Source of the DNA: Thermoplasmata archaeon
GTDB lineage: Archaea; Thermoplasmatota; Thermoplasmata; Lutacidiplasmatales; UBA184
Length of the DNA: 35,754 bases
NCBI GenBank assembly: GCA_022750125.1
Contig: JAKIWH010000003.1
Coordinates: forward strand, 5,655 to 41,408
Direction: 5' to 3'
Both the position numbers and the translations under genes were made by a program. Below the pieces are notes generated by a model. The model ran no database searches. It was given only the letters and a program-made list of their open reading frames with translations, and had not been told where the DNA came from. Positions 3,200 to 7,661 of this stretch are shown in pieces; within the stretch, counting starts at the first letter, position 1, and every line of letters begins with the position of its first letter.

Positions 3200-3895
3200 C
3201 TAGGTAGTGACCTCGACCCGGCCCGGCCCCCTATCGAGGCGATCCACTGCCGTTGGTCTCCATGCGCGCGCAACGACAAGCGCCCCGAGCGGGACCGCAA
3301 GCAGGTACACCCAGAGCCCAGTGTAGGTGCCGGAGAGCACCGCCGGCGCCAGCGTTCGAACAGGGTTCAGGGAGCTACCGGTTAACGGTCCGATGAGGAA
3401 GGTGGAGACCCCGACCACGAGGGGGGGAAGGCTCACTCTCCATCGGTGTCGCCCTTCACCTTCGTCCGAAAGGATGAACACCGACCCCACTAGGGCGGCG
3501 GTGAAACCGAGTTCTAACCCGAAGGCCAGCGCGACCCCACCGTCGGAAGGAACTGTGGCGCCGAGGCGATCCGTACGACCGAGAAGTCCGAGGACCGTCG
3601 CGCTGCCGAGAAAGGCTCCCGAGAGTTGGCCCGCGAGATAGGCAGGGGCCTCCCGCCAAGCGACCCGTCCGCTCGCGGCGAGAGCGAGCGTGACGGCGGG
3701 ATTTAGATGGGCACCGGAGACATGGATGAAGAGCAGTATCGGCAGCAGTACCGCGAGGAACCATGCCGCGGCCAACTCCCACTGCGGCAGACCCCCGGCT
3801 CGGGCTCCCCACACGATGGACCCGGTCCCGATTCCCACGAGGAGCGCGGTGCCCGCGGCCTCCGCCAAGCAGCGGCCGAGTAGACCCGCTCTCAC
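3200..3895 (-). CDS. MIP-family channel (aquaglyceroporin-like), likely arsenite or solute exit
   Basis: 231 aa with the six-helix, two-half-helix pattern of major intrinsic proteins. The first pore motif is a standard NPA (HLNPAVT, residues 65-67). The second is NPV (SSLNPVR, 177-179), followed by Arg180, the selectivity-filter arginine. The GTG start overlaps the stop of the arsenate-reductase gene by GTGA, so the two are almost certainly translated together. In Sinorhizobium meliloti a MIP channel, AqpS, replaces the arsenite pump in an ars operon: the reductase makes As(III) inside and the channel lets it leave down its gradient. The same division of labour is inferred here from the pairing. 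Transport of glycerol, water or another metalloid cannot be excluded. Confidence 0.88.
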   Translation of the reverse strand: MRAGLLGRCLAEAAGTALLVGIGTGSIVWGARAGGLPQWELAAAWFLAVLLPILLFIHVSGAHLNPAVTLALAASGRVAWREAPAYLAGQLSGAFLGSATVLGLLGRTDRLGATVPSDGGVALAFGLELGFTAALVGSVFILSDEGEGRHRWRVSLPPLVVGVSTFLIGPLTGSSLNPVRTLAPAVLSGTYTGLWVYLLAVPLGALVVARAWRPTAVDRLDRGPGRVEVTT

Positions 3896-4338
3896 TGGGT
3901 GCGGAGTTCGAGAGCCCTAAGTCGGCGATCCCTCAACACGAGCTCCGTTCTCAGTACCTGCATCCTGCTCCGAATCTCGTCCCGGACTCCACGCGCCCCG
4001 GCATCATCGAGTCGGGCCGGGTCAGGCAGCTCCCAGTCGCTCATTTTCAGGGCCTTGAGGTTCGCGGGGCAGCTCGCGTCGTCCAGGCAGCCCATCGAGA
4101 TCCGGACGGTAGCCGCTTCGATCATCTCCGGGGTGGCGAGTTGGGGCGCGTGGGCCGGTAGGGTCAGCCCGATTTCGGCCAGAAGCGTTCTGGTCCGAGG
4201 GTGCGGTTCCGTCGCCGGCCGAGTTCCCCCCGACGTCGCCCGCCAGCCGGGCGCTGGATGGGCGTTGAAGATTGCTTCCGCCATTAGGGATCGGCCCGCG
4301 TTCTCGACGCAAACGAACAGCACCGTCCGTTCGTTCAT
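3892..4338 (-). CDS. arsC: Arsenate reductase, low-molecular-weight phosphatase fold, thioredoxin-coupled type
   Basis: 148 aa. The phosphatase loop C-x5-R is CVENAGRS (Cys10 to Arg16). Two further cysteines, Cys84 and Cys90 in GCLDDASC, sit where the redox pair Cys82/Cys89 of Staphylococcus pI258 ArsC is found. WELPDP (102-107) supplies the Asp-Pro general acid region, and the chain ends with the usual GVRDEI helix. This triad distinguishes arsenate reductases from plain tyrosine phosphatases: Cys10 attacks arsenate and the disulfide is passed to Cys84/Cys90 for reduction by thioredoxin. It is co-transcribed with the MIP channel and divergent from an HxlR-type regulator. The ATG at 4338 is preceded by a purine-rich GAGGGAGTGAGG. 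Function as a phosphatase remains possible but less likely. Confidence 0.88.
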   Translation of the reverse strand: MNERTVLFVCVENAGRSLMAEAIFNAHPAPGWRATSGGTRPATEPHPRTRTLLAEIGLTLPAHAPQLATPEMIEAATVRISMGCLDDASCPANLKALKMSDWELPDPARLDDAGARGVRDEIRSRMQVLRTELVLRDRRLRALELRTQ

Positions 4339-4428
4339 GCGCGCGCCTCACTCCCTCGGGTCGCCGCTCCTGGGGAGTACGGTTCCGGAGTGCGGAGCCA
4401 TCCCCCCGGAGCTGGCAGGCATGCTACT

Positions 4429-4447
4429 CACTTCAAAGTCTGAAGTG
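4429..4447. promoter_or_regulatory. Candidate operator: 19-bp inverted repeat before the HxlR gene
   Basis: CACTTCA, five bases, then TGAAGTG: perfect 7-bp arms. It ends two bases before the TTAAG box of the HxlR-family gene and lies in the shared space with the arsC-MIP operon. A dimeric winged-helix protein could bind here and block TBP/TFB at its own promoter. This is a sequence observation; binding is inferred. Confidence 0.55.
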
Positions 4448-4449
4448 CT

Positions 4450-4455
4450 CTTAAG
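4450..4455 (+). promoter_or_regulatory. TATA-like box of the HxlR-family gene
   Basis: CTTAAG centred about 26 bases before the ATG at 4479, which predicts a leaderless transcript. Confidence 0.5.
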
Positions 4456-4478
4456 CGACCGCTACGTACGGAGAAAGC

Positions 4479-4799
4479 ATGCCCCGGGGGCTATCGCTGG
4501 TCTGCCCCTGCCCTCCGGCCGGCCTGGTCGACGTGGTGGGCAAGAAATGGGCGGTCTGCGTAGTCACTCTCTTGGGGCATCACGGCGCCCTCAGGTTCGC
4601 GCCGATACAGAGGTCGCTCCCAGCCGTTAGCCCAGCCACACTCACCTCCACGCTCCGTTCGTTGGAGCGAGAGCACTTGGTCGCTCGAGTCCGAATCTCG
4701 ACCGACGGGCGCGCGACAGGGGCGTACGCGCTGACCGAGCGCGGGGAAGCCCTCTATCGGAGCCTTGTTCCCTTCGCCTCCTGGCTCAGGGCAGCCTAG
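4479..4799 (+). CDS. HxlR-family winged-helix regulator
   Basis: 106 aa, a normal size for the family. It has the conserved N-terminal Cys-Pro (Cys9, with a second Cys11), DVVGKKWAVCVV in helix 1-2 (Cys27), LRFAPIQRSLPAVSPATLTS as the helix-turn-helix, LRSLEREHLVARV, and the wing followed by ALTERGEALY. Family members are dimeric repressors or activators, and several sense oxidants or electrophiles through the N-terminal cysteine. Because it is divergent from arsC-MIP, the simplest idea is that it controls that operon and itself through the 4429-4447 inverted repeat. Three cysteines near the DNA-binding domain would suit As(III) or thiol-stress sensing, but that is a guess. Transcript predicted leaderless. 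Confidence 0.85.
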   Translation: MPRGLSLVCPCPPAGLVDVVGKKWAVCVVTLLGHHGALRFAPIQRSLPAVSPATLTSTLRSLEREHLVARVRISTDGRATGAYALTERGEALYRSLVPFASWLRAA

Positions 4800-5705: not shown

Positions 5706-6119
5706 CTAGGCACTCGCTGATTCAGCGCTGCCCGTTGCCGGCGCTGAATCGGGGCGGAACACCATCGAGATCGAGTTTACGCAGTGGCGCGTGTTCTTGG
5801 GCGTCATTCGCTCGCCCTCGAAGACGTGGCCAAGATGGGCGCCGCAGCGGGCACATTGAATCTCGACCCGGTGCCCGTCGGCGTCCGCCAGACGCCGGAC
5901 AGCGCCTGGAAGCTCATCGTCAAAGCTGGGCCAGCCACAGCCAGAGTCGAACTTCGCTTCGGACCGGAAGAGCGGGGCATCGCACCGCTTGCACACGTAG
6001 AGACCTGGACGAAACTGGTGGTCGTACTCTCCCGAGAACGCCGGCTCGGTCCCCTTCCGAAGGATGACGGCCTCCTCGCTCCGAGAGAGCTTCCGCAACG
6101 GAACGGTGGGTTGCGCCAT
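5706..6119 (-). CDS. msrB: Peptide methionine-R-sulfoxide reductase
   Basis: 137 aa. Repairs the R epimer of methionine sulfoxide in proteins in the cytoplasm, using thioredoxin. The zinc-binding pairs CKRC (Cys43, Cys46) and CARC (Cys89, Cys92) are both present. GCGWPSF carries Cys61, and the catalytic cysteine is Cys113 in [11 protein letters not shown], the normal position of RxCxNS. The start is secure: a minus-strand CATATT lies about 26 bases before the ATG at 6119, so the mRNA is probably leaderless and the gene monocistronic. The final 15 residues form a small-residue tail outside the domain. Confidence 0.95.
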
Positions 6120-6170: not shown

Positions 6171-6662
6171 TTACCAGCTCATCACCGGGCGCAGTCGCCG
6201 CCCGTTGGTCGGTGGCAAGACAAACTCGCGGCGAGGAACCTTGCCCTCCGTCGACAGGAGGACCGGCGACCGTGGACTCGGGGAGGGGCGGGACGAGGGG
6301 TGGATCATCCCCACCGCTCGAGGCCGGCGCTGCCGAATGAACCGGGGTTGCCCGCGGCGCGGCTCGTTCACGAGGCGCCGGAGCGAGACGCCAACGAGGT
6401 CCGGTTCCGCCTCGAGGCCAACCTCGGCCAGAGCCGTGGGCACCACGTCCACCAGGCTCGCGGTGCGACGGCCGATGGTCCCCTGCATGGGCTCGTCGGG
6501 GAAGTTCACAAAAAGCGGAACTTGAGCTCCGGGTTCTCGCGAGTTGGGGCGCTCGAGTTGGGAGGGGAGCTGCGAGAACGCGAGTTCCTCCCAGTTCGAT
6601 TCTAGTAGTCTACGCACGAGGTGGGCGTGGTCGTGTACTGGCCGCGGAGGTTCGGGCATCAC
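6171..6662 (-). pseudogene. Decayed sulfatase / alkaline-phosphatase superfamily gene, C-terminal part
   Basis: An open frame of 163 codons. Its middle, AQVPLFVNFPDEP and then RRTASLVDVVPTALAEVGLE with DLVGVSLRRLV, is the characteristic late segment of sulfatase-family hydrolases, where a VPL-x-V strand is followed by SLVD-x-x-PT-x-L and GxSL. The catalytic N-terminal half, including the nucleophile motif and metal-binding aspartates, is absent, and upstream frames do not restore it. No promoter is seen. It therefore looks like the leftover 3' part of a gene; an intact distant member of the family lies at 15555-17015. A short stand-alone protein cannot be fully excluded. Confidence 0.45.
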
Positions 6663-6797
6663 TGGAACTCACGTGTGGACTCTTGGGTGCCTGACGCTTG
6701 GAAGCGGTCGGTGGGCGTACATAATGGGTGGGCGCGACGGGAAACTGGCGGAGGGCTCGCGTCGCGCTCCGAGTCCTGATTCGGCCCGTACGCACGG

Positions 6798-6803
6798 TTT
6801 ATC
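6798..6803 (+). promoter_or_regulatory. TATA-like box of the glycan operon
   Basis: TTTATC centred about 27 bases before the GTG at 6828; predicts a leaderless mRNA. A second T/A-rich stretch, TACATAAT, lies at 6717-6724 and could be an alternative promoter. Confidence 0.45.
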
Positions 6804-6827
6804 GGACCTTGGCTCGTCGTAAGGACC

Positions 6828-7661
6828 GTGGGGGACCCGGACGCCGCGCGCAAAGGAGCGGCCGCGGGTCCCGCGGGGCGTTCCGTCAGCGCCGTGATCC
6901 CCACCAAGAACGCGGGTCGTACACTCCTCGGCTGCCTAGCCTCCCTCGCGGAGCAGACTCATCCGATCAGCGAGATCATCGTCGTGGACAGCCTCTCCAC
7001 GGATGAGACGCCGAGGATCGCCTGCACGCGAGCCCGACTGATCAGTCGGCGCTGCGGTATGACGATGGGACGTCTCCTCGGCGCAGAGGCCTCGAAGGGC
7101 GACTACGTTCTGAGCCTCGACGCCGACCAGCTGCTCGACCCGCGCGCGGTCGAGCAGGCACTTGCCACGGGACGACCCGCCGTCGCGCTCGGCGAGCAGA
7201 GCACGGGTTCTGGAGTGGTTGCGTGGCTCAACGAGATCGACCGCCGCGGGATCGAGGGGAGCTGGCAAGCGAACCTCGACCCGCTGCGAGGCTCGATCCG
7301 CCCCCGGTTCTTTCGACGGGATCTCCTCCTCCGGGCGTTACGAGCGATTCCAGCAGAGCTCGTTGAGATCGAGCCCGCACCGTACTCGGAGGACAGCCTC
7401 ATCTACCTTCACACAGGCTTACAGCCTGAGGAGGTCGGCTACGTGCCTCGCGCCCTCCGGCATGTCGAAGCTCCGCTCCTCGCCTACTTGCGGAAGTGGC
7501 GGGGCTACGGGATCTCCGCGCAAGTCTATCGAGGGACTCAGTGGGAGGGCCTCGTCAATCGCCGCGGGAAACGAGGGGGGTCGCTCGGGATCCGCGCCGC
7601 CGCGATCCCCGCCCTGCTCCTCAAGGCCGTCCCGTTCGCGATAGGCTACAACTCTGGGTAA
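6828..7661 (+). CDS. Family 2 glycosyltransferase (GT-A fold)
   Basis: 277 aa, starting at GTG. SAVIPTKNAGRTLLGCLASL opens the nucleotide-sugar fold, IIVVDSLSTDET supplies the ribose/uracil-binding aspartate, and SLDADQLL is the DxD-type metal site. After about residue 195 it has the acceptor-side region seen in GT2 enzymes that build surface glycans, ending in a weakly hydrophobic segment (IPALLLKAVPFAIGY) that may touch the membrane. It is a cytoplasmic enzyme that transfers a sugar from a nucleotide donor, probably to a lipid-linked acceptor; donor and acceptor are unknown. First gene of the plus-strand glycan operon, 18 bases before the GT-C-like protein. Confidence 0.9.
   Translation: MGDPDAARKGAAAGPAGRSVSAVIPTKNAGRTLLGCLASLAEQTHPISEIIVVDSLSTDETPRIACTRARLISRRCGMTMGRLLGAEASKGDYVLSLDADQLLDPRAVEQALATGRPAVALGEQSTGSGVVAWLNEIDRRGIEGSWQANLDPLRGSIRPRFFRRDLLLRALRAIPAELVEIEPAPYSEDSLIYLHTGLQPEEVGYVPRALRHVEAPLLAYLRKWRGYGISAQVYRGTQWEGLVNRRGKRGGSLGIRAAAIPALLLKAVPFAIGYNSG

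Follow-up and report, generated by a model that had tools for sequence, protein, structure and literature searches.

An arsC-channel operon beside a divergent HxlR gene in the archaeal order Lutacidiplasmatales

The locus and its genes

The window studied here, a stretch of 35,754 nucleotides, belongs to a soil archaeon of the order Lutacidiplasmatales whose genome is available as a 1.89 Mb draft, 87% complete. Between positions 3200 and 4799 it carries a compact unit of two genes on the minus strand, arsC and a MIP channel gene, and a divergent HxlR gene on the plus strand. All three genes are intact. The original prediction had proposed this gene set at these positions, and both the open reading frames and the matches to PF00230, PF01451 and PF01638, all well over their curated cut-offs, agree with it. 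The prediction missed the operator, the CPC...C cysteines of HxlR and the microprotein of the relatives, which are the strongest features of the locus. The features are the following:

3200 to 3895, minus strand: MIP (aquaglyceroporin-like) channel, proposed arsenite exit pore (PF00230, E 5.9e-36)
3892 to 3895, minus strand: GTGA overlap of the ArsC TGA stop and the MIP GTG start, read from the sequence; presumed translational coupling
3892 to 4338, minus strand: ArsC-like arsenate reductase with a low-molecular-weight (LMW) phosphatase fold and C10, C84 and C90 (PF01451, E 1.1e-15)
4348 to 4422, minus strand: 24-codon ORF MPASSGGMAPHSGTVLPRSGDPRE, cysteine-free, in the microprotein slot (comparison with 26 relatives)
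4429 to 4447, no strand assigned: operator palindrome CACTTCA-AAGTC-TGAAGTG, proposed HxlR site (conservation and genome uniqueness)
4450 to 4455, no strand assigned: CTTAAG, an AT-rich TATA-like box beside the operator (ATAAG or TTAAG at this place in nearly all relatives)
4461 to 4469, plus strand: GCTACGTAC, conserved element that follows the TATA-like box and precedes the HxlR start (seen in most of the HxlR upstream regions aligned)
4479 to 4799, plus strand: HxlR-family regulator with a CPC...C triad of C9, C11 and C27 (PF01638, E 1.5e-15)

The ArsC of the window scores 58.5 bits against PF01451 (cut-off 23.2), has the C-x5-R loop of the LMW phosphatases (C10, R16), and finds its best solved relatives in the arsenate reductases 3t38 and 1y1l. 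Its cysteines lie at positions 10, 84 and 90 and nowhere else, as expected for the three redox cysteines first ascribed to it; among 60 ArsCs of the family, C10, N13, R16, S17, C84 and D106-P107 are invariant and C90 is present in 59. The description "thioredoxin-type ArsC" holds for this cysteine triad, but not for membership in the curated families, as the protein falls far below the TIGR02691 equivalog (39.0 bits, cut-off 174.3) and the NF010053 subfamily (49.2 bits, cut-off 215). It may function like the pI258-type thioredoxin-coupled reductase, yet from outside that curated family. The genome holds one LMWPc gene and three thioredoxins above cut-off. At the 3' end of arsC, the predicted fusion of the channel start to the ArsC stop by GTGA was found at 3892 to 3895, and the two genes overlap likewise in about three quarters of 33 related loci; such an overlap would be expected to couple their translation.

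The channel scores 124.8 bits against PF00230 (cut-off 25) and aligns to GlpF and OsNIP2;1. With the GlpF filter positions mapped by alignment, its selectivity filter reads W45-T165-S174-R180, and this W-T-S-R filter is identical across 32 ars-linked MIPs, bar one S to T, while paralogous MIPs carry other residues at these positions. Its two boxes are NPA and NPV, the second being NPA in the other MIPs. In a tree with 20 other MIPs of the family, the ars-linked channels make up one side of a branch with an SH-aLRT of 99, although long branches meet at the base and the deep rooting is unsure. One further MIP is encoded in the genome. We propose this channel as the arsenite exit pore; it would be permeable to arsenite, and the flow would probably be outward.

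This channel is the only exporter of the operon. With regard to the pump and the ArsR regulator that the original prediction took to be replaced here, profile searches of the 87% complete genome gave no match to ACR3/SBF or to ArsB, and no ArsM above cut-off; ArsR-type domains, by contrast, do occur elsewhere in the genome, none of them adjoining arsC. Since the genome is 87% complete, the absence of a pump could reflect an assembly gap.

Some other features of the window were noted. A minus-strand ORF at 1673 to 2746 resembles, by eye, the AHSA1/SRPBCC domain in its C-terminal half. An MsrB gene lies at 5706 to 6119 and is also found at the related loci L052 and L061, 1.4 to 2.8 kb from the ars operon, which may be chance. 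An arsenic link through the glycosyltransferase gene at 6828 to 7661 was discarded, its match to the arsenosugar model TIGR04283 reaching 41.5 bits against a cut-off of 182.

The regulator, its operator and a microprotein of the relatives

The HxlR of the window scores 57.3 bits against PF01638 (cut-off 20.8). The statement that the regulator is HxlR rather than ArsR was therefore correct for this locus, and the ArsR regulator of AqpS-type ars operons is not found here, HxlR being in its place; ArsR does appear in other loci of the family. In an alignment of 14 sequences the ars-linked HxlRs have in common LxCPCPPxG...GKKWAxCV, with C9, C11 and C27 invariant. This triad is absent from the four other HxlRs with recovered frames in the genome of the window. 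A scan of the genomes of 84,980 species with conserved HxlR stretches returned 45 loci, 40 of which adjoin a divergent ArsC and five of which have no adjacent ArsC. Since the scan patterns include the motif, finding it in the matches carries no independent weight, unlike the linkage to ArsC. All 45 loci are archaeal, apart from two short contigs whose bins carry a bacterial label, presumably through misbinning. Named relatives that the HxlR alignment brought up are metagenome-assembled genomes of Thermoplasmata, among them Candidatus Lutacidiplasma silvani of the order Lutacidiplasmatales, which suggests the same order for the window. At L082, from another family of the class, an HxlR (6516 to 6881) divergent to ArsC has the CxC without the third cysteine and is possibly an intermediate.

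Upstream of 40 of the 45 HxlR genes compared lies TTCA-N5-TGAA, beside an ATAAG or TTAAG box. The 17-base core of the operator has a single site in the genome of the window, against none for a reversed-pattern control. Across 26 genomes the exact core is confined to HxlR-type ars loci, with one copy at each; the ArsR-type genomes do not have it, nor do a few HxlR-type genomes in which the site is imperfect. Read towards ArsC, the operator follows the AT-rich box and precedes the expected start of transcription; the TATA-like box is probably common to both divergent promoters. TACGTA is not found upstream of the ArsR-type loci, and the palindromes around the TATA box of those loci differ from the HxlR operator. 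Upstream of ArsR (for example at L049, L061 and L118), ATGTYGA/TCNACAT half-sites flank an ATATAT box and are likely the ArsR operator. The position and uniqueness of the palindrome are consistent with repression by HxlR from this site, and As(III) is the candidate signal.

Another reading of the regulator accepts the operon as one for arsenic and makes HxlR a sensor of oxidative or electrophile stress (quinones, aldehydes, disulfide stress), to which arsenic would speak indirectly. The predicted structure of the window HxlR matches QsrR, T. volcanium HxlR and YodB, so that its nearest solved structures include the quinone and thiol-stress sensors QsrR and YodB, and in the alignment the N-terminal cysteine of QsrR is the counterpart of C9. 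A winged-helix fold and an N-terminal cysteine are indeed what it has in common with QsrR, YodB and B. subtilis HxlR (HxlR/DUF24; PDB 4hqe/4hqm, 5hs7, 7bzd). It differs from them in its three CPC...C cysteines and its linkage to arsenic genes: C11 and C27 are conserved in the ars-linked members as well, and none of the paralogues that could be read has them. The Cys11-x-Lys13 motif for formaldehyde in B. subtilis HxlR (PMC7835342) is found neither in the window (C9-P-C11) nor in the aligned ars-linked members, which have Cys-x-Cys instead. The exact operator core, occurring only at ars loci, is a better fit to a dedicated metalloid switch than to a stress regulon. We did not draw on the AlphaFold geometry of the CPC site, which is too uncertain for this purpose (the region is poorly placed, with a pLDDT of about 50). 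On balance, we regard a stress-sensing HxlR as unlikely.

A cysteine-rich microprotein of 22 to 42 residues, 5 to 15 of which are Cys (22 to 38%), is encoded in the interval from the operator to ArsC at 26 of the 45 named HxlR loci (among L144 to L188). In all but one locus it starts 12 to 18 nt after the operator, mostly 15, and it shows either the recurrent motif CDPxxCPPGCCDxCC or long runs of cysteine, as exemplified by L185 (MPETCCEAAKCCAKADCCDPATGCPPGCCDGCCFM), L170 and L187. In about 100 regions read on both strands, Cys-rich ORFs occur almost only upstream of ArsC on the same strand, the exceptions being two unrelated ones more than 2 kb away. Scans of the microproteins against Pfam and NCBIfam placed them in no family and gave no metallothionein match at E up to 1; the sole profile match was keratin-type and sub-threshold. 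Ordinary gene callers would miss a family of such small size.

We disfavour the view that the microprotein is a mere CAG repeat, because of a bias to synonymous TGT codons and a start whose spacing from the operator hardly varies. Its cysteine codons are TGC and TGT, and variation inside the runs is mostly synonymous: the codons other than TGC are mostly TGT (16), and the rest include four that differ by a single change at the first base and none by a single change at the second. The TGYSMNCCNGGNTGYTGY DNA motif was rejected as a specific marker by itself, as a reversed control matches equally often; its position is specific, with eight of nine matches in 26 genomes at ars loci and the ninth outside a cysteine-rich frame. 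An association of the microprotein with the channel (14 of 18 MIP loci against 2 of 13 ACR3 loci, Fisher p 0.001) was set aside, since phylogenetically independent pairs are too few to support it. In L152, where HxlR occurs with ACR3, the slot holds an Rdx/SelW-like protein ending in CC (PF10262, E 4e-7), and in L150 a protein divergent from HxlR, also ending in CC and similar by eye to that of L152, occupies it. In the relatives that have it, the microprotein may hold arsenite until exit.

In the window itself the microprotein is absent and its slot has only the cysteine-free ORF of 24 codons, possibly a decayed remnant. This raises the question of whether the copy in the window is a worn-down arsenic module, without microprotein and ArsM, that may function poorly. 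Relatives with frames split by a frame change (MIP in L044, ArsC in L054 and L128), whether from assembly error or decay, would fit such a view. We nevertheless think it highly unlikely, as the three genes are intact, the catalytic and filter residues are kept, the operator is perfect, and many intact HxlR-type loci lack the microprotein as well.

Exchange of pump and channel in related loci

ArsC was searched for in 300 genomes of the class, and about 95 surrounding regions were annotated with profiles derived from these same loci; in the family of the window (Lutacidiplasmatales) there are 60 loci whose ArsC is full-length. These are assembled from interchangeable parts, namely HxlR or ArsR, then ArsM in some, then ArsC, and finally MIP or ACR3. 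The slot after ArsC holds MIP in 32 loci, ACR3 in 25, neither in three and both in none, and the regulator is a divergent HxlR in 32 and an in-line ArsR in 22. The representative ACR3 scores 382 bits (curated cut-off 282.8), the representative ArsM passes its NCBIfam cut-off, and the ArsR is above the cut-off for the metalloregulator ArsR/SmtB family. The presence of ACR3, ArsM and ArsR in homologous neighbourhoods bears out the original reading of the locus as an arsenic module. There are also HxlR loci with ACR3 in place of MIP, which give the regulator a link to arsenic that does not depend on the channel.

The proposal that a channel stands in the place of a pump is likewise supported by these loci, where the same slot holds either one. 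The clearest case is a pair of loci, L052 and L061, that are about 93% identical on both sides; identity ends at the end of arsC and resumes past the exporter, which is ACR3 at L052 and MIP at L061, a clean swap. The ArsC tree implies at least 10 changes of the exporter label and 14 of the regulator label, figures that are approximate because this is a quick tree with many weak branches. Recurrence in 32 of 60 family loci rules out chance adjacency of ArsC and MIP, and no MIP was found beside ArsC in the 26 relatives of the class examined outside the family. ACR3 is present in 26 of 81 family genomes. In one genome, G248, an ars-linked MIP and a partial ACR3 are both present, at different loci, so that the exclusion of MIP and ACR3 holds per operon and not strictly per genome.

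Highly improbable, too, is a reading in which the channel serves housekeeping or uptake (of water, glycerol or other metalloid acids), ArsC acts as a protein phosphatase and the relatives carry their arsenic genes incidentally: MIPs are bidirectional, GlpF-like proteins import arsenite (PMC6205960) and LMW phosphatases and ArsC have a common fold, but MIP and ACR3 exchange in one slot, even between near-identical regions, the ars-linked MIPs have a dedicated clade and filter, and the reductase cysteines C84 and C90, unneeded by phosphatases, are conserved.

Proposed function and relation to known systems

Starting from the gene identities, the operon structure, the exchange with ACR3, the unique operator and the conserved cysteines, we consider it likely that the locus is a two-gene operon for arsenate reduction and arsenite exit, under an HxlR released by arsenite and with a channel in place of a pump. 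Arsenate enters cells by phosphate uptake. ArsC would reduce it to arsenite by way of C10, C84 and C90, with electrons probably from thioredoxin, and the co-translated channel, standing in for the ACR3 of close relatives, would let neutral As(OH)3 out down its gradient. Exit would continue while the concentration inside exceeds that outside, reduction building the gradient. HxlR, bound to the palindrome between the divergent genes, would repress them until arsenite on the thiols of C9, C11 and C27 frees the DNA. A passive channel lets external arsenite in too. The exit-channel model predicts resistance to arsenate together with sensitivity to arsenite. This combination has been reported for S. 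meliloti and Frankia (PMC6205960, PMC4531530). Against the operon reading stand the sub-cut-off ArsC, the poorly modelled CPC region, the five HxlR loci without ArsC, G248, the incomplete genome and the entry of external arsenite.

The core of the arrangement has bacterial counterparts, and 18 MIPs are sole transporters of bacterial ars operons (PMC4435449). As originally suggested, the locus resembles the S. meliloti AqpS ars operon (Yang et al. 2005, as reviewed in PMC6205960 and PMC4435449), where an aquaglyceroporin also takes the place of the pump and arsenite made by ArsC exits through it. That operon is bacterial, and no HxlR, HxlR operator or Cys-rich microprotein is reported for it. 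The Frankia neighbourhood aqpS-arsR-arsC2-cadI (PMC4531530) likewise places a channel beside a thioredoxin-type LMW ArsC, and differs in its ArsR regulator, its cadI and its actinobacterial host. Channel and reductase are physically joined in the AqpS-ArsC fusion of Salinispora tropica (Wu et al. 2010, cited in PMC6205960), which is a single polypeptide, whereas the window has two genes with a 4-base overlap. Closer at hand, the ArsR-ArsM-ArsC-ACR3 operons of sister genomes (for example L048 and L051) have a homologous ArsC and the same slot order, but an ACR3 pump for the channel and, for HxlR, an ArsR with palindromes of its own.

The claim that the set had not been described in archaea stands in so far as we found no archaeal report, but the combination of a channel with an LMW ArsC had already been reported in bacteria (PMC4531530, PMC4435449, PMC6205960). 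Our search of open-licence papers, which is weak evidence on such a point, found no HxlR regulator of arsenic genes, no archaeal arrangement of this kind and no such microprotein, and arsenic is nowhere mentioned in the paper describing the order Lutacidiplasmatales (PMC9287336). What is apparently new is the control by HxlR, the occurrence in archaea and the Cys-rich microprotein, while the core is a variant of known bacterial channel-ArsC operons.

The arrangement recurs across the archaeal order Lutacidiplasmatales. We tentatively put forward a broader idea, which we find quite possible without leaning towards it: the HxlRs of this order may have acquired, separately from ArsR, a three-thiol switch for arsenite, and at most loci with HxlR and channel the operon may start with a new, genetically encoded family of phytochelatin-like Cys microproteins that buffer arsenite, or hand it over, beside a passive channel. 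A second regulator family may thus have evolved arsenite sensing, with a potential use in biosensors, and an unannotated family of cysteine microproteins is brought to light. Finally, the exchange of pump and channel in place provides matched pairs that make arsenate resistance through a passive channel directly testable.
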